The notes under the pieces: generated by a model | Databases searched by the model: none | The model's input: only the letters and a program-made list of their open reading frames with translations | What the model was told of the DNA's origin: nothing | DNA from: Ferruginibacter sp. | Lineage (GTDB): Bacteria; Bacteroidota; Bacteroidia; Chitinophagales; Chitinophagaceae | Assembly (NCBI GenBank): GCA_025362235.1 | Contig: JANYGZ010000023.1 | Coordinates: 1-64,000, forward strand | DNA: 64,000 bases | Direction: 5' to 3' | Program-made: the position numbers and the translations under genes | Shown: positions 50,216 to 57,181 of the stretch, piece after piece | Position numbering within the stretch: position 1 is the first letter of the stretch | Layout of the letters: each line of letters starts with the position of its first letter

Positions 50216-52387
50216 TTAGAACTTTATTTTTAGTCCGCCGTTTAAAACAAAACCGTCTACGGGTGCATAGATGTCACGAAAGGTTGGGTTTGTAATTGTT
50301 CCTGTGTAAATGGTATCAAACTTTGTTTGTCGTGTGTCAGTAAAATTTTCAAAGTTGGCGAAGATTGAAAAATTTTTCCAAATTTTTTCAATGATAAATC
50401 CTGTGAGCCAATATTGCTTTCCGGTTGCTCCGTCATTCAGTTTTTGCGGGCTGAAATAATATGCCTCCAAACCAATTTTCAATTTGTCATCAATCTCATA
50501 AACCAAAACATTATTCAACCGGTGTCGTGCTACCAAAGGGAATTCTGTTGTTGTGGTATAATGTTGTTTCACATCAGCTAAAGTATAGCCTGCAAAAAGT
50601 TTAAAATTTTTGTAAATAAGTATGATGTTTGTTTCCATTCCCTTTGTGTTAATAAAGCCGTTAGGCCGCAGGTATTGAAAGTAACCATTTGCAATTGGAG
50701 TAAGCACTAACGGATTGCCAATTTGGGTATAGAAAAAAAGTTGATTAATGCTAAGAGAAGCTTTGCCGTTAAACAGACCTGTTCGGTAATTGATGTCGAA
50801 ATTTCCACCGTATGAGTTTTCTGCATGGGTGTTTTTTACGTCGATAGGCAAAATATTTTTAAACTGAATTTTTTCTCCGTCTTCTGTAAATACAGTTGGT
50901 GTTTTGTAACCAACCCCTCCGCCAATTCGTGAAGTGAAGTGTTGGTTTATTTTGAACAATGCAGAAATTCGTGGAAGCAGAAAAAATCCATAATCATTTT
51001 GATAGTCGCCTCTTAAACCTGTTTCAAGTACAATAATTTTTGAAGCGTTCCAGGTGTTTTGAACAAATGCGCCAATGGTTGATTGATTGTAATTAACCGG
51101 AATAATTGTGTCGTGTTTGTCTTGTGTGAATTTGTCGGTAAGGAAATTTATGCCACCGACCCATTCTGATTTTTCTTTCTTGTAATTGTAATCAACTTCT
51201 GTGTAAGTGGAAAGTTGCACTCCAGAAAATGTATAGTCAGGAATTTGAATGGAACGATTATAATAACTTACACTGTTTTTAAAATCCCATTGAGCGTTGC
51301 TATTTATTGTATGCACAAAAGAAAGCTGTGTGCTGTAACGGTTCGTTTTATTTTTTTCAAAGTACGAATGTATGCTGTCTGCTTTTCCTTCAATGTATTT
51401 TATATCGCCACCAATGCGGTTTTCAAGTGTTGCATTTACTCCAAAGTTCATTGTTGTTTTGTTGTTGAAGTAGAAAAATATTTTTGGATTAAATGTAAAT
51501 CGGTTAAACTTTGGAATTGCTGTTAAGCCAATGTTGGCAGGATCGTAAGGTGTGCCGTGATTGTATGAGGCAAAAATTGTTGTTGCTGTTTTCTTAAACT
51601 TTTGAGAATAGAATCCACTTGCATCCAATCCTAACGCAGATGTGCCGTTGAGAATAAATTTTAATTCTCTTTCTTCCTTCGGAGATTTTGAAACAAGATT
51701 TACTAAACCTGCAATTGCCCCGCCACCATACAACGTAGAAGCAGAACCTTTGATAACTTCTACTTGCTTTAAGTCAAGCGGAACTATTTGTAAAAGCCCT
51801 AATCCTCCCGAAAAGCCCGAATACAAAGGAAAACCGTCACGAATTATTTGAGTGTATTTTCCATTAAGGCCCTGAATACGGATGGAAGAATTGTAACTCG
51901 TTGCTGATGTTTGTTGTGTTTGTATTCCTGTGCTTTCATTCAGCATCATCCTGATGTCGCCTGGTTTCATATTTCCCTTCTCTTCCAATTCTTCACCTGA
52001 TATTGTTTCAACTCTTGTAGGGATGTTAGCAATGGAATGGCTGCTTCTTGTGGCAGTAATCACTACTTCTTCATTTTCCTTCTCTGCTTCATCTAAAAGT
52101 ATTTCAATTGGGTCATCGGAACCTAGCGGAAAGGTCAGCAATAATTCTTTGTCCTGAAAACCAACACGAGAGATAACAATTTCCTGTTTACCTGCCATAA
52201 TATTTTTCAGGATGACAAAACCCGAACTATCAGCAGCAGTTGATTTGTTGATTGTTTTTATTGTAACAGTAGCGCCCTGCAAAGGTTGTATTTCTTTGCT
52301 GTCTTTAATAAATGCTTTAAAAGTATTTTGGGCATTTGTAATTACAGTGCATAGCATAACTATGCTAATGAGCATTATTTTTTTCAT
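50216..52387 (-). CDS. TonB-dependent receptor with N-terminal carboxypeptidase-like domain
   Basis: The 723-aa protein has a signal peptide (LISIVMLCTVITNAQ), a carboxypeptidase-regulatory-like domain (about 20-110), a plug with the TonB-region ATRSSHSIANIPTRVETISG, and a 22-strand barrel ending in a hydrophobic C-terminal strand (GFVLNGGLKIKF). It is not a SusC, because no SusD gene follows. The downstream end of the ArsR-led run and the DUF6660 gene next door suggest import of a metal or metalloid-linked ligand; this is inference from context. Confidence 0.88.
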   Translation of the reverse strand: MKKIMLISIVMLCTVITNAQNTFKAFIKDSKEIQPLQGATVTIKTINKSTAADSSGFVILKNIMAGKQEIVISRVGFQDKELLLTFPLGSDDPIEILLDEAEKENEEVVITATRSSHSIANIPTRVETISGEELEEKGNMKPGDIRMMLNESTGIQTQQTSATSYNSSIRIQGLNGKYTQIIRDGFPLYSGFSGGLGLLQIVPLDLKQVEVIKGSASTLYGGGAIAGLVNLVSKSPKEERELKFILNGTSALGLDASGFYSQKFKKTATTIFASYNHGTPYDPANIGLTAIPKFNRFTFNPKIFFYFNNKTTMNFGVNATLENRIGGDIKYIEGKADSIHSYFEKNKTNRYSTQLSFVHTINSNAQWDFKNSVSYYNRSIQIPDYTFSGVQLSTYTEVDYNYKKEKSEWVGGINFLTDKFTQDKHDTIIPVNYNQSTIGAFVQNTWNASKIIVLETGLRGDYQNDYGFFLLPRISALFKINQHFTSRIGGGVGYKTPTVFTEDGEKIQFKNILPIDVKNTHAENSYGGNFDINYRTGLFNGKASLSINQLFFYTQIGNPLVLTPIANGYFQYLRPNGFINTKGMETNIILIYKNFKLFAGYTLADVKQHYTTTTEFPLVARHRLNNVLVYEIDDKLKIGLEAYYFSPQKLNDGATGKQYWLTGFIIEKIWKNFSIFANFENFTDTRQTKFDTIYTGTITNPTFRDIYAPVDGFVLNGGLKIKF

Positions 52388-52463
52388 TTCATTTTAAAAT
52401 TGATTGACAATAAAGAGGAACAAACCCTGTCCTTTAACCACTAGTTTGCTTATAAGATATGTG

Positions 52464-52772
52464 TCAACAAATTTTAGGCGGCTGCCAAAAAGAAGAAATG
52501 TATTGTGGGAAATATAATGGTGTGTAATGGGGAAAAGCAGGACCGGTCAACTGTTTTGGGGTGTTAACCTCGATAGAATTTGTCGTTATAGTGAAGCCTG
52601 CACAATTGCCGCATAAAGTAAAGGGTGAACAGTTTTTACAATCGTCTTTATGTTTATGGGTGTCGTTTGAGTTTGATTGTACTGTTGTGTCATTACAATT
52701 GTCAACCGCACAACATGGAACTGTTGATAGTAACAGAATATAAACAGCAAATATGAATGTGAAGATTTTCAC
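52464..52772 (-). CDS. Small Cys/His-rich exported protein, DUF6660-like
   Basis: The 102-aa protein starts at GTG 52772 with a signal peptide (MKIFTFIFAVYILLLSTVPC), and the mature part is full of Cys and His (CCAVDNCND, HKHKDDCKNCSPFTLCGNC). The pattern suggests metal binding in the periplasm. Small proteins of this kind sit beside TonB receptors and copper/metal efflux genes in many Bacteroidota. The family name is from memory. It lies between the TonB receptor and the aquaporin-family gene. Confidence 0.65.
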   Translation of the reverse strand: MKIFTFIFAVYILLLSTVPCCAVDNCNDTTVQSNSNDTHKHKDDCKNCSPFTLCGNCAGFTITTNSIEVNTPKQLTGPAFPHYTPLYFPQYISSFWQPPKIC

Positions 52773-52825
52773 TGCCGCAAAGGTAAGTCATGTGTTTGGT
52801 TGTAGGTTGTTATGTCGGGAAAATT

Positions 52826-53464
52826 TTACTTTGTATACTTCCAGGCAAATGTCCCCATCATTGCACCCAACACCGGTGCTGTTAAATAAATCCAGAGCGT
52901 GGTGATATTACCGGAAACAATTGCAGGCGACAAACTTCTTGCAGGGTTCATGGATGCACCACAAATTGGCCCGGCAAACATTGCCTCTAACAACACTGTG
53001 CCGCCAATAGCAAGCCCTGCCATGGTACCTGTTTCTTTTGAGCCTTGTGAAGTGAACAGGATAACAAGCATTAAAATAAATGTGAGTATAATTTCTAAAA
53101 CAAAGGATTGAAGGTTTGAACCAACGGGAATAGTCGCCCCTAAATTAATATTGGTGAGAAACAATAATTTTAAAACTCCGGTTGCTATAAATGCTCCGGT
53201 TATTTGTGCGGCGATATAAGGCAGTATTTCTTTTTTAGGAAAGAGACCTGCTAATGAAAAAGCAATTGTAACTGCAGGATTAAGATGCGCCCCTGATGTA
53301 TTGCCAAAAGCATAGATCATAGCAGTAACAATAAGACCAAATGTTATTGCAATACCGATATGGCCAACCTGTCCGTTGGTTTGCTGATCAATAATTATTG
53401 CCCCTGTACCACAAAAAACCAATGCAAAAGTTCCGATAAGTTCAGCAATGTATTTTTTCATCAT
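52826..53464 (-). CDS. MIP-family (aquaporin-like) channel in the ArsR-led cluster
   Basis: The 212-aa protein has six membrane segments and both asparagine signatures, HLNPAVTIAF (about 61-70) and SMNPARSLSPA (about 174-184). It is shorter than the AqpZ gene at 23653 and differs in sequence, so it is a paralogue rather than a duplicate. In some bacteria an MIP channel (AqpS) replaces the arsenite pump next to ars genes. The start is immediately after the GcvH-like stop (0-bp gap), so they are clearly co-transcribed. Confidence 0.85.
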   Translation of the reverse strand: MMKKYIAELIGTFALVFCGTGAIIIDQQTNGQVGHIGIAITFGLIVTAMIYAFGNTSGAHLNPAVTIAFSLAGLFPKKEILPYIAAQITGAFIATGVLKLLFLTNINLGATIPVGSNLQSFVLEIILTFILMLVILFTSQGSKETGTMAGLAIGGTVLLEAMFAGPICGASMNPARSLSPAIVSGNITTLWIYLTAPVLGAMMGTFAWKYTK

Positions 53465-53845
53465 TTAGTTGCCAGTTAGTTTATTGTACGCTGCTGCATT
53501 TAAAAGAGTATTGATTTCTGCGGTGTTCGCTATTTCAATTTTCATCATCCAGCCTTCGCCGTATGGGTCACTGTTAATTAGTGTTGGGTCTTGTAACAAT
53601 TTTTTATTTGTCGCAATTACTTTACCTGAAACTGGCATAAACAAATCGCTTACAGTTTTAATGGCTTCTATAGAACCAAATACTTTGTCTTGCTCAAAAC
53701 TATAATCAATGTTGGGTAAGTCGGCATAAACAATTTCCCCTAATTCGCTTTGTGCAAATTCTGTAATGCCGATTGTGCCTGTATTTCCGTCAATGCGCAG
53801 CCATGTATGCTCTTTTGAGTAAAATAAATCTGCTGTAAAATTCAT
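53465..53845 (-). CDS. gcvH: GcvH-like lipoyl carrier protein
   Basis: From the ATG at 53845 the product is 126 aa, full length for glycine-cleavage H protein. The lipoylation site is SIEAIKTVSDLFMP (Lys63), the glycine-rich end YGEGWMMKIEI is intact, and the fold elements EHTWLRID and GEIVYADLP are standard. None of the other glycine-cleavage genes is nearby. Its position among metalloid-response genes is unusual and suggests either a second, specialised H-like lipoyl carrier or simple hitchhiking. A longer upstream ORF is not favoured. Confidence 0.88.
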   Translation of the reverse strand: MNFTADLFYSKEHTWLRIDGNTGTIGITEFAQSELGEIVYADLPNIDYSFEQDKVFGSIEAIKTVSDLFMPVSGKVIATNKKLLQDPTLINSDPYGEGWMMKIEIANTAEINTLLNAAAYNKLTGN

Positions 53846-53870
53846 GCTATTTTTATTTGGTTGTAAATAC

Positions 53871-54365
53871 TTAATCAACACCAACAACTGCACTTCTTCT
53901 TTCAAGAAAAACATTGTCCCGCCAAACGTCTTTCATTTTGCCGATTTTCTTCCGGTAACCAACAATCCTGAAACCGTTCTTTTCGTGCATAACAATGCTT
54001 GGTTTGTTTTCTGGAAAAATACCCGATTGTAATGTCCAGAAACCATTTTTCTCACTTTCTATAATCAATGTTTGTAAAAGTACTGAGCCAATTTTTTTGC
54101 CCCTGGCGTTAGCTGCTACATACACACTTACTTCTGCAACACCTGCATACACACACCTGCCGGAAACGGCTGTAAGTGCTGCCCATCCCACTACTTCATC
54201 ATTTTCAATAGCAACAAAGCGGCAGGTTTCAACATGTGCTGCATCCCATTCTTGCCATTTGGGTGAATCGGTTTGAAAAGTAGCATTGCCTGTGGCAATA
54301 CCTTCTTCATAAATTTTTTTTACCGCTTCCCAATGTTGAGGAAGCATCGATGTTATATGTATCAT
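53871..54365 (-). CDS. GNAT acetyltransferase (ArsN/phosphinothricin-type)
   Basis: From the ATG at 54365 the product is 164 aa (MIHITSMLPQHWEAVKKIYE). The coenzyme-A loop ARGKKIGS and the conserved Glu in GVAEVSVYV match the PAT/ArsN group, whose members acetylate phosphinothricin, methionine sulfone or arsenic-containing analogues. The SGIFPENKPSIVMHEKNGFR stretch is highly typical. It starts 1 bp beyond the end of the metallophosphoesterase gene, so the two are tightly linked. Confidence 0.85.
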   Translation of the reverse strand: MIHITSMLPQHWEAVKKIYEEGIATGNATFQTDSPKWQEWDAAHVETCRFVAIENDEVVGWAALTAVSGRCVYAGVAEVSVYVAANARGKKIGSVLLQTLIIESEKNGFWTLQSGIFPENKPSIVMHEKNGFRIVGYRKKIGKMKDVWRDNVFLERRSAVVGVD

Positions 54366-54366
54366 A

Positions 54367-55140
54367 TTAAAAACCTTTGCGTAACATGTCTGCATATTCG
54401 TTTGGTAATGGACTGCCCTCAACGGCTTTGGCGGCTGTTTCAATATCATAATTAAAACGGATAAATTCTACCTTGATGCTGTCTTTATCTGTAACAGAAC
54501 TGTTGTCGTTGATGGTAAGCAGTACATAACCGCCTTGTGGGTTGCCGTCTTTTGGCTTACCAACTGAACCAATATTTACGGCATGGCGAAAGTGGTTTTG
54601 CCTATCAATACCAGAATTTAAAATACGGTGATAAGGTTTGTGCGTATGCCCAAAACACATGATGTCTGCATTGGCCTGTTCCATAATACGGAGCATACTT
54701 TTTTCTTCACGGTCTTCAAAAAGGTATTCATTTATTTTTCTTGGGCTGCCATGTACCAACAGCAAATTCAGTTTATCTTCATTCAGTTGAAACTCTATTT
54801 TGATATGTGCAGGAAGCGTACGCAAATATTTTCTTTCGGCATCTTTCATTATCGAGTTGGTGAATGAAATAGATATTTTGCCCATATCCTTTTCCGGCTC
54901 TGTTTTGTAGGCACAGCCACATTCATCGCTCATGCGCCCGATACCAAAATCGTAGTTACCTGCAATGGTGGGAATTTTGCGCTTTTTTATTTCATTCACA
55001 ACTTCGTTTGGCCAAATGTTGTAGCCGACCAAATCGCCTAAGCAATAAATGGCATCGGGGTTCCGCTTATCCATGTCTTTAAAAAATGCTTCCAATGCCG
55101 GAAGGTTTGCATGGATATCGCTGAATAATGCAATGTTCAT
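54367..55140 (-). CDS. Metallophosphoesterase (YfcE/MPE family)
   Basis: From the ATG at 55140 the product is 257 aa with the full two-metal site: SDIHANL (Asp and His), GDLVGY (Asp), GNYD (Asn), VHGSP (His) and GHTH (His, His). The spacing fits calcineurin-like phosphoesterases of the YfcE/MPE branch, hydrolysing phosphodiesters or phosphomonoesters in the cytoplasm. An internal TGGC-like Cys pair (SDECGCAYK) is notable. Its presence in an ArsR-led cluster is not standard and is one reason the cluster is of interest. Confidence 0.88.
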   Translation of the reverse strand: MNIALFSDIHANLPALEAFFKDMDKRNPDAIYCLGDLVGYNIWPNEVVNEIKKRKIPTIAGNYDFGIGRMSDECGCAYKTEPEKDMGKISISFTNSIMKDAERKYLRTLPAHIKIEFQLNEDKLNLLLVHGSPRKINEYLFEDREEKSMLRIMEQANADIMCFGHTHKPYHRILNSGIDRQNHFRHAVNIGSVGKPKDGNPQGGYVLLTINDNSSVTDKDSIKVEFIRFNYDIETAAKAVEGSPLPNEYADMLRKGF

Positions 55141-55151
55141 TTTGTAAATTT

Positions 55152-55775
55152 TTAGTTTGCTTCTTGCTTTATAAAACTGCAAAAAAGAAAATCCTGTGTT
55201 GTTTTAAATGGGGTTATGTGCTTTTCGGTCAGGCACTTTATTTTTTTAAATCCATTTTCAAGTTCTGCTTCGAGGGTATTTTCGCTGTATTGCTTAATGT
55301 AGAGCCCGCTGCATTTTTTGGGCCCGTCTTTACTAAAAGTGCCGATGGTTACAAAACCATTTTCCTTTAAGGCCTGCCTGGCTGTTGAAAGATAATGTAC
55401 TATTTGTGGCTTTGTTGTAAGGAAATGAAAAGTTGCCCTGTCGTGCCAAAAATCGTAGGTGGTGTTTGGGTGAAAATCGTTGATGTCTGAAACAACCCAA
55501 TTCACTTTAGCTGCTTTTTCTGCAAGCCGTTTCTTTGATTTTTTCAATGCCTGTTCACTAATATCAAGTACGGTAATGTTTTCAAAGCCTTCATCCAAAA
55601 GGAAGTCGACAAGCTTGCTGTCACCACCACCAATATCAATGATACTGGCCGACTTTGAAAGCCCGGCATTGTGAATAAAGTCAAGGGATGTAGCAGGTAT
55701 TTCCTGTGTCCAGCTTACTTCATCTGGTTGTTTTGCAGCATAAATTTTCTCCCAATGGTTTTTTTTATTTTCCAT
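55152..55775 (-). CDS. Class I SAM-dependent methyltransferase
   Basis: From the ATG at 55775 the product is 207 aa. The SAM-binding motif SIIDIGGGDSKLVDFLL is clear, and the family signature DFWHDRATFHFLT (here TYDFWHDRATFHFLTTK) with GPKKCSGLYI identifies a group often found in metal-resistance clusters. It lacks the four-Cys arrangement of true arsenite methyltransferase ArsM, so methylation of arsenic itself is not implied. The downstream gene starts 12 bp away. Confidence 0.85.
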   Translation of the reverse strand: MENKKNHWEKIYAAKQPDEVSWTQEIPATSLDFIHNAGLSKSASIIDIGGGDSKLVDFLLDEGFENITVLDISEQALKKSKKRLAEKAAKVNWVVSDINDFHPNTTYDFWHDRATFHFLTTKPQIVHYLSTARQALKENGFVTIGTFSKDGPKKCSGLYIKQYSENTLEAELENGFKKIKCLTEKHITPFKTTQDFLFCSFIKQEAN

Positions 55776-55786
55776 TTTTTTTATAT

Positions 55787-56260
55787 TTAGCAGCAGCCGC
55801 TTCCCGGAGTGCAACAACTTTGATCAGCCGTTTGTAATCCCGTTAACTGAACTTTTTGTTTTGATAGCGGAATGCCGCAGGAATCACTTGCCAAACAGGC
55901 CGTTTGCTTTGATACCAGTAAAAAGTCTTTTCCATTAAAATGCAAATCATACTTACCAATGGTATCCGACTGATATTCTACTTCAATTTCCAGGTCGCCG
56001 ATACCTAATTTATTTTCTGACAGTGCAATGATCTTTGCTAATTTTTGAGGTTTTAAGCGATGCTCAAAATCATTGGCATCCCAAAGCTGAAAGTTGACGG
56101 TTTTTTCAAGGCGTTCTGTACCGCCGCAGTCAATAAAATGTTTTGTAACAAGCCCCACTTCTGTAACATGAAAATGTTCCGGGACATATCCGCCCGTTGG
56201 CAGTTTAAAATTTACAGCTTCGGCTGTTGTAAGGTGTTTTTTAATTTCTGATAATTTCAT
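55787..56260 (-). CDS. DUF6428-family protein, Cys-rich C-terminus
   Basis: The 157-aa protein matches the DUF6428 pattern (KHLTTAEAVNFKLPTGGYVP, EHFHVTEVGLVTKHFIDCGG), a small cupin-like fold, and ends with a cysteine-rich tail (TACLASDSCGIPL ... DQSCCTPGSGCC). DUF6428 genes often follow arsR in Bacteroidota. The tail (six Cys) suggests metal or metalloid binding. Between arsR and this gene lies a decayed four-helix-bundle gene, so the two may have been closer originally. Confidence 0.8.
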   Translation of the reverse strand: MKLSEIKKHLTTAEAVNFKLPTGGYVPEHFHVTEVGLVTKHFIDCGGTERLEKTVNFQLWDANDFEHRLKPQKLAKIIALSENKLGIGDLEIEVEYQSDTIGKYDLHFNGKDFLLVSKQTACLASDSCGIPLSKQKVQLTGLQTADQSCCTPGSGCC

Positions 56261-56285
56261 ATGATTAATCTTTAATTACGAATGT

Positions 56286-56645
56286 TTAATTACGAATTTG
56301 TTTTGTATTCAATTTATCTTTTATTGTTCTCTGAATAGCTCCGATTATCTTTAATATTTCTTCTATATCCGTTAGCAGCTTTGCGATTGTTCTTTGTCAA
56401 AGTATCCAGTTTCTGTGAGCAATAGGATCCAGTATTTGGTTTCCCTTACTTCCTTATATGCAATGGTAATTTTGCAAAAAAATCTTTACCCTATTGCCCA
56501 CCTATTGCTTCTTCAATATTGGCCCCACTGGATGTTCCACATCTAAGCAACTGTTTTGAAAGCGTAAATTCTTTCTTTTCTTCGCATAGGTATTTATAAA
56601 CTTTTACAACCCTTACAGCAAACTGAAAACTTTTTTGTTGTATGA
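56286..56645 (-). pseudogene. Decayed four-helix-bundle (S23/23S-rRNA intervening-sequence-type) gene
   Basis: Minus-strand fragments in three frames align with this common family: VVKVYKYLCEEKKEFTLSKQ with LLRCGTSSGANIEEAIGGQ, then a TAG and KDFFAK, a frameshift, ITIAYKEVRETKYWILLLTE with TGYFDKEQSQS, another frameshift, and KLLTDIEEILKIIGAIQRTI up to the stop at 56286. One stop and two frameshifts make it non-functional. It lies between arsR and the DUF6428 gene. Confidence 0.8.
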
Positions 56646-56729
56646 TATTTTATTTCATTTTTTTGAAATTTAATAATCATAATTAAAATTTTGCAACTCG
56701 TAATTCATAATTGACAATTCGAAATTGAA

Positions 56730-57062
56730 TTAACAACAGTTTGATTTTTTAACTTCCATTTTACTTGAAACGCTGGTAAAATAATTTTGCAGTTTTTGAA
56801 ATATCTTTTCATCGATGCAATAGCAAATGGCATTTCCTTCAATTTCCCCTTTTATTAATCCGGCATTTTTTAATTCTTTAAGGTGTTGCGAAACAGTCGG
56901 CTGTGCTAGGGGCAATTCATTTACGATATCGCCGCAAATGCAGGTGTCAACCTTTAGCAGGTAATCAATAATGGCAACCCTTGCAGGGTGCCCCAACGCT
57001 TTTGCCAATGTAGCAATGGCGTTTTGCTTATCGGTAAAATGATCTGTTTTGGTTGCTCCCAT
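56730..57062 (-). CDS. arsR: ArsR/SmtB-family metalloregulatory repressor
   Basis: The 110-aa protein is a winged-helix ArsR repressor: [15 protein letters not shown], then [11 protein letters not shown] with the Cys41-x-Cys43 pair in the metalloid-sensing position, [19 protein letters not shown] for the recognition helix, and [10 protein letters not shown] for the wing. The tail ends KKSNCC with two further Cys. In well-studied members, As(III)/Sb(III) binding to the CxC site releases DNA. A perfect palindrome lies 10 bp before the start codon, so it probably represses itself and the following operon. Confidence 0.9.
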
Positions 57063-57072
57063 AATTATAATT

Positions 57073-57088
57073 TAATATTGCAATATTA
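57073..57088. promoter_or_regulatory. ArsR operator (16-bp perfect palindrome)
   Basis: TAATATTG|CAATATTA is a perfect 8+8 palindrome 10 bp upstream of the arsR start codon. Sequences of this kind (AT-rich arms around TTGCAA) are typical ArsR-family operators. A looser inverted repeat, AAAGATTT with AAATCTTT, is at 57093-57118 next to it. Confidence 0.75.
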
Positions 57089-57181
57089 CGATAAAGATTT
57101 GAAATACAAAAAATCTTTACAATTATTTTATGCCTGCTATAGCAAAGTTTTAGGATAATAAAGAATAACCGCATATTCTTT

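Follow-up and report, generated by a model that had tools for sequence, protein, structure and literature searches.

The DNA analysed here is a stretch of 64,000 nucleotides from Ferruginibacter sp. (contig JANYGZ010000023.1, assembly GCA_025362235.1; "the window" in the following), which harbors a cluster of nine genes headed by that of an ArsR repressor. The cluster is a metalloid-response cluster, a known kind of operon with the addition of a lipoyl-carrier partner found in no paper. Judged from its sequence, it very probably represents an arsenic-detoxification operon with a Car1-type arsenate reductase and a channel instead of a pump. An earlier note on this DNA had described the cluster as lacking both pump and reductase. 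This is most likely wrong: the metallophosphoesterase fits the Car1 type and the MIP channel seems to replace ACR3. All nine genes are open reading frames on the minus strand, located where the note had placed them (Table 1), and the family names given there were borne out, with care needed for the GNAT acetyltransferase and the methyltransferase. ArsC, ACR3 and ArsB were indeed not found among the nine gene products, and the combination of ArsC with ArsB or ACR3 that makes up the classical ars operon is not present in the cluster.

The metallophosphoesterase as candidate arsenate reductase

The metallophosphoesterase of the cluster is probably, as far as its conserved residues tell, a Car1-type arsenate reductase, which would supply the "missing" reductase. 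According to PMC12124457, which cites Shen et al. 2024 (Mol Microbiol), the metallophosphoesterase Car1 from Rufibacter tibetensis is an As(V) reductase, for which Cys74 and Cys76 are essential; this reductase type is already in print. C74 and C76 of the window protein carry the same numbers, and the relative treated in PMC12124457 itself lies in an ars operon as does the window protein. The window differs from this description in the pairing of the predicted reductase with a lipoyl carrier.

The window protein combines a calcineurin-like fold and the ligands for two metals with the cysteine pair. D8, H10, D36, N62, H130, H165, H167 and C76 are invariant in all 15 aligned phosphoesterases, and C74 is kept in 14 of them. 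The first seven of these residues are at the usual metal-ligand positions of the calcineurin-like fold. The predicted model, in which the stretch 64–75 beside the cysteine pair is of low confidence, matched 3rqz in a Foldseek search (E 2.7e-15). All phosphoesterases with C74-G-C76 (CGC-type) that were examined carry GNYD, while the paralogues lacking CGC mostly read GNHD where the motif was read (GNQD in the second copy of L016; the motif was not found in L136), a difference which is a sign of a changed active site. CGC-bearing relatives are also found in ars clusters of Actinomycetota and Bacillota. At six loci (L100, L107, L114, L144, L145 and L147), a CGC/GNYD phosphoesterase is followed by a second copy with GNHD instead of CGC and GNYD, forming a duplicated pair.

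The genomic surroundings were compared in a set of 90 loci obtained via DUF6428, the product of the second gene of the cluster. At least 589 relatives of DUF6428 were confirmed in a contig scan, of which the best 80 were kept; ten further loci came from nine relatives (59 genomes searched, 10 matched, the one holding the window included). The set comprises the 90 fetched loci and the window minus the duplicate L057, and it is biased to DUF6428 proteins resembling that of the window. Neighbours were counted by tblastn within a radius of 6 kb at chosen bit-score thresholds, since the open reading frame caller missed some genes (e.g. in L019, L041, L093, L151 and L155 to L157, and the GcvH of L239). 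Both phosphoesterase and ArsC were present at 1 locus, phosphoesterase only at 15, ArsC only at 71 and neither at 3. This inverse relation (Fisher p 2.7e-13, uncorrected for kinship) means that ArsC was absent within 6 kb from 15 of the 16 phosphoesterase loci versus 3 of the 74 loci lacking a phosphoesterase. The corresponding counts for the 82 loci with at least 4.5 kb downstream were 1, 12, 67 and 2. An even sample of 395 genomes from the phylum of Ferruginibacter sp. yielded 28 places with a phosphoesterase match in 23 genomes; 18 of them, the window included, were CGC-type and 10 were not. Within 6 kb of the 18 CGC-type places, ArsR was found 15 times, ACR3 9 times (two of these matches weak, with 31–32% identity), MIP 4 times, ArsC 3 times and GcvH twice; hence, 15 of the 18 had no ArsC nearby.

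A hydrolase acting for example on arsenate esters or nucleotides, in an operon for As(III) or organoarsenicals only, is a very unlikely alternative to a reductase. The fold and the nearest solved structures are those of phosphoesterases, one of them an Ap4A hydrolase, and the ArsN-like GNAT and the methyltransferase suggest organic arsenic. These points are opposed by the conserved C74-G-C76 with GNYD, by the inverse relation to ArsC and by the As(V) reductase activity reported for Car1 (PMC12124457). A strict replacement of ArsC by Car1 was rejected as an absolute rule, as both are present in L027, L143, L147 and L154. With the phosphoesterase fitting the Car1 type, it counts as a known part of ars operons, and the view of the earlier note that phosphoesterase and lipoyl carrier are both non-standard holds for the latter only.

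The MIP channel and a possible arsenite exit

The MIP channel takes, as it seems, the place of ACR3. ACR3 was not found within 6 kb of MIP at any of the three MIP loci of the 90-locus set (window and the decayed L024 included) or at any of the four MIP places of the even phylum sample (window included). ArsM, MIP and Car1 occur together in L149 and L241, both lacking ACR3. In line with this, MIPs encoded in ars operons were reported to stand without another transporter in 18 of 18 cases (PMC4435449).

The channel possesses two NPA boxes, and its nearest relatives among solved MIPs are NIPs, with plant NIP2-1 (Lsi1; PDB 7nl4 and 7cjs) scoring best. The selectivity filter reads F42/A161/A170/R176 in the alignment. 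Owing to the small residues at two of these positions, the sequence suggests a wider pore than that of aquaporin Z. The operon of Sinorhizobium meliloti AqpS resembles the window in that a MIP channel replaces the arsenite pump; its reductase is ArsC (PMC6205960 and PMC4435449), whereas the predicted one of the window is Car1-type and, going by the nearest solved structure, the channel resembles NIPs. Two loci show further arrangements around a MIP gene. L241 (1717–7857) reads ArsR-ArsM-MIP-phosphate transporter-Car1-UspA-like-GcvH, the transporter being PiT-type by eye. L024 (11282–13280) is a decayed second ars locus with ArsR, DUF6428, MIP and ArsC fragments in the genome G029, the Car1 locus of which is L016.

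The GcvH-like lipoyl carrier

The GcvH-like protein is a non-standard, novel part of the operon. No paper describing gcvH as part of an ars operon was found in searches of the literature on glycine cleavage and arsenic operons, which covered few subscription papers; this silence is weak evidence of novelty. The ars-linked GcvH proteins form one separate clade on a long branch (support 100/100) in a tree of 24 rows without outgroup, the bootstrap of which had not fully settled (the misread row L179 was left out, and L181 duplicates L102_ars). The lipoyl-lysine position (K63) is kept in all 13 members of the clade (eight in alignment A3 plus L237 to L241). A cysteine of its own is not conserved in GcvH.

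CGC-type phosphoesterase and ars-clade GcvH recur together in 13 distinct loci (the window, L016, L027, L056, L071, L097, L102, L148 and L237 to L241). In eight of them (L056, L071, L097, L102, L148 and L237 to L239), gcvH directly follows car1, with approximately 14 to 35 bases between match ends. The A3 profile was run over 395 genomes of the class, 395 from the order to which G334 belongs and 396 from that of Ferruginibacter sp. (overlapping sets). Scores of at least 189 bits were reached in seven genomes (G000, G219, G985, G891, G1455, G1352 and G1457), and in each of them the cluster with the GcvH gene also encodes a CGC-type Car1; five of the seven are new, as G000 and G219 were already in the profile. 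The next-best seven proteins of the class sample (178.8–182 bits) are ordinary GcvH, and none of them is encoded near Car1. Outside the ars clade, L250 (G334) carries two GcvH-like genes, one of them divergent, with one gene in between; a similar pair is present in G453.

Tentatively, Car1-type reductases of some Bacteroidota could receive their electrons from the dedicated GcvH clade, which would act as their cognate donor and be recharged by lipoamide dehydrogenase. The peroxidase Ohr, which is reduced by a lipoylated protein, provides a precedent for a thiol-dependent detoxification enzyme fed by lipoyl groups. PDB titles name Ohr with dihydrolipoamide; enzyme and substrate differ from those of the proposed Car1-GcvH pair.

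A more doubtful option is a buffer or relay, in which the dihydrolipoyl dithiol of the GcvH paralogue takes As(III) from Car1 to ACR3 or to the channel and donates no electrons. Lipoic acid binds As(III) through its vicinal dithiols, and at 9 of the 13 loci gcvH is flanked by car1 on one side and acr3 on the other (L027, L056, L071, L097, L102, L148, L237, L238 and L239). However, the gene order varies (L016, L240, L241 and the window), a conserved cysteine is missing from GcvH itself, and the exit in the window and in L241 would be a passive channel. It is unlikely that the paralogue serves glycine cleavage as a reserve H protein, induced to stand in for a copy poisoned by arsenite. Such a role would agree with the gcvH equivalog cut-off being exceeded (TIGR00527, 135.8 over 115.85 bits) and with the inhibition of lipoyl enzymes by As(III), but not with the separate long-branched clade or with the second, ordinary gcvH encoded elsewhere in the same genome. 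Moreover, all seven GcvH loci of the 90-locus set have the phosphoesterase, and GcvH was found at none of the 74 loci lacking it.

Proposed pathway

In the proposed pathway, As(III) would release ArsR from its palindrome, as expected for the family. Arsenate, once inside the cell, would be reduced by the metallophosphoesterase, held at the two-metal site as in the Car1 mechanism, with C74 and C76 as the putative redox pair. The oxidised C74-C76 pair would then need re-reduction. The GcvH-like carrier, recharged by lipoamide dehydrogenase, might re-reduce this pair or pass As(III) onward, and As(OH)3 could leave the cell down its gradient via the NIP-like channel. DUF6428, the GNAT and the methyltransferase are putative accessory parts.

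Several observations weigh against this reading. Car1 is coupled to thioredoxin, which concerns the electron-donor step. GcvH was found near only 2 of the 18 CGC-type places of the even sample and was absent nearby in 16, so Car1 needs no GcvH in general. One or more genes separate gcvH from car1 in 5 of the 13 loci (the window, L016, L027, L240 and L241), the GcvH frame of G891 contains a stop codon, and GcvH of L016 departs from several otherwise conserved positions. L102 alone among 16 phosphoesterases has Phe at the position of Cys74, though GcvH is present there. Car1 and ArsC coexist on plasmids of Hymenobacter, Mucilaginibacter and Rubrobacter as well as at the four loci with both reductases, and ArsC of the CTGNSCRS or CTHNSARS type is encoded somewhere in 9 of the 23 phosphoesterase-bearing genomes searched (long-type ArsC in 6 of 20). 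The F/A/A/R filter of the MIP deviates from the open G/S/G/R filter of NIP2 (Lsi1-type) channels, among them the nearest solved relative, and the channel was not classed with the NIP2 type. The likeness to Car1 was judged by the description in PMC12124457.

Genome-wide, ACR3 was not found in the assembly holding the window, in a search that did not extend to ArsB, ArsP, ArsJ and MFS pumps. PF03960 ArsC and long-type ArsC were also not found in this genome. Its only low-molecular-weight phosphatase has a CLGNICRSP loop of the tyrosine-phosphatase type and is encoded beside a hisS-like gene. Given an assembly of 111 contigs with a completeness of 98.25%, absence of ACR3 and ArsC is likely but not proven.

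Regulator and remaining genes of the cluster

A CxC-sensor ArsR and a perfect palindromic operator had been claimed for the head of the cluster. The repressor contains C41-I-C43, and the perfect 16-bp palindrome TAATATTGCAATATTA, a candidate operator, was read from the sequence. An As(III)-type CxC ArsR thus heads the unit, which corresponds to an ArsR-regulated arsenic operon, with a putative single transcript. At 49 of the 90 loci, the palindrome core ATTGCAAT lies between −90 and +20 relative to the ArsR match. The tight packing also stands: the gaps from DUF6428 through MIP amount to 11, 11, 1, 25 and 0 bases in order, followed by 53 bases between MIP and DUF6660 and 76 bases between DUF6660 and the TonB receptor. 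The spacing of ArsR and DUF6428 is looser with 469 bases, which hold a decayed-looking gene with stops in all frames.

Table 1. Features of the ars cluster and its surroundings in the window.
Feature	Position	Strand	Evidence
Candidate ArsR operator TAATATTGCAATATTA	57073-57088		perfect 16-bp palindrome, read from sequence
ArsR/SmtB repressor	56730-57062	-	HTH_5 46 bits; NF033788 69.4 bits (cut-off 55); C41-I-C43, C-terminal CC
Decayed-looking gene in 469-bp gap	56261-56729	-	six-frame reading; four-helix-bundle type by eye
DUF6428	55787-56260	-	PF20001 221 bits; Cys-rich tail CCTPGSGCC
Class I S-adenosylmethionine (SAM) methyltransferase	55152-55775	-	library search; without ArsM match
Car1-type metallophosphoesterase, predicted arsenate reductase	54367-55140	-	PF12850 79.9 bits; C74-G-C76, GNYD; fold
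GNAT acetyltransferase, ArsN1-related	53871-54365	-	NF040503 126.9 bits, curated cut-off 170
ars-clade GcvH-like lipoyl carrier	53465-53845	-	GCV_H 131 bits; TIGR00527 135.8 bits; K63 candidate lipoyl-lysine
MIP channel	52826-53464	-	MIP family 177 bits; nearest solved relative NIP2-1
DUF6660, small Cys/His-rich, hydrophobic N-terminus	52464-52772	-	PF20365 39 bits
TonB-dependent receptor	50216-52387	-	Plug domain; 76-bp gap before receptor

The commonest gene order among the DUF6428 loci is ArsR-DUF6428-ArsC-ACR3, and DUF6428 is therefore a regular second gene in ars operons of Bacteroidota. The earlier note had named a lack of conserved co-occurrence elsewhere as the result that would speak against a module; instead, ars operons of numerous Bacteroidota begin with ArsR-DUF6428, and the pairing of CGC-type phosphoesterase with ars-clade GcvH recurs at the 13 loci named above. 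By gene order, DUF6428 is probably mrArsU of Mucilaginibacter gossypii P3, the ars operon of which reads arsR-mrarsU-arsN-arsC-hp-acr3-me1-me2 (PMC10652896) and is matched in order by a Mucilaginibacter robiniae plasmid (L114). The operon of strain P3 shares with the window arsR, mrarsU, arsN and metallophosphoesterase genes, two of which are present and called uncharacterised there; unlike the window, it includes ArsC and ACR3, and neither GcvH nor MIP is listed (PMC10652896). The predicted model of DUF6428 is confident over residues 1–120 and gave no match among solved structures (best E 0.16), and no function is claimed from the fold for this reason. A Chryseobacterium daeguense contig contains two near-identical ars regions, L056 and L057, approximately 46 kb apart.

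The GNAT, called ArsN-type before, is related to ArsN1 (ArsN1a-like) and scores below the curated cut-off for this family (126.9 of 170 bits). That the methyltransferase is not ArsM was confirmed, as no ArsM model was among the 18 NCBIfam matches at E 0.01. Three of its cysteines are common to Bacteroidota relatives in the ars loci L040, L055 and L238 and also occur in the copy of L078, which is separated from an ars operon by approximately 6 kb, and in a Runella plasmid copy, which adjoins thioredoxin genes and others related to sulfur; in two proteobacterial relatives, a single one of the three is retained. The methyltransferase may or may not be an arsenic enzyme: two plasmid-encoded relatives adjoin sulfur-related genes, a third does not.

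The methyltransferase recurs in 3 and DUF6660 in 6 of the 90 loci, the window included each time. This rarity would fit a chance accretion of unrelated genes behind ArsR, which is nevertheless extremely improbable given that car1 and ars-clade gcvH cluster in 13 distinct loci and are direct neighbours in 8. For DUF6660 and the TonB receptor, a role as parts of the arsenic module is unsupported, with DUF6660 in so few loci; membership of the receptor in the ars unit is uncertain, and the two are perhaps a separate metal module. The pair also occurs in the vicinity of ars genes at the loci L041, L072 and L093, and L238 holds a DUF6660-like gene (by eye) beside a CusA-like pump.

Implications for arsenic detoxification

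Where arsenic operons have been scored as reductase-less, a Car1-type enzyme may be present instead, with consequences for surveys based on counts of arsC. The tie of Car1 to a private lipoyl carrier leads to a simple enzyme question, namely by which protein Car1 is re-reduced. If the donor is the lipoyl carrier, lipoic acid, classically known as a target of arsenite, would be seen working in arsenic detoxification, and a lipoyl-dependent arsenate reductase would add a third reductant of arsenate detoxification besides glutaredoxin and thioredoxin.

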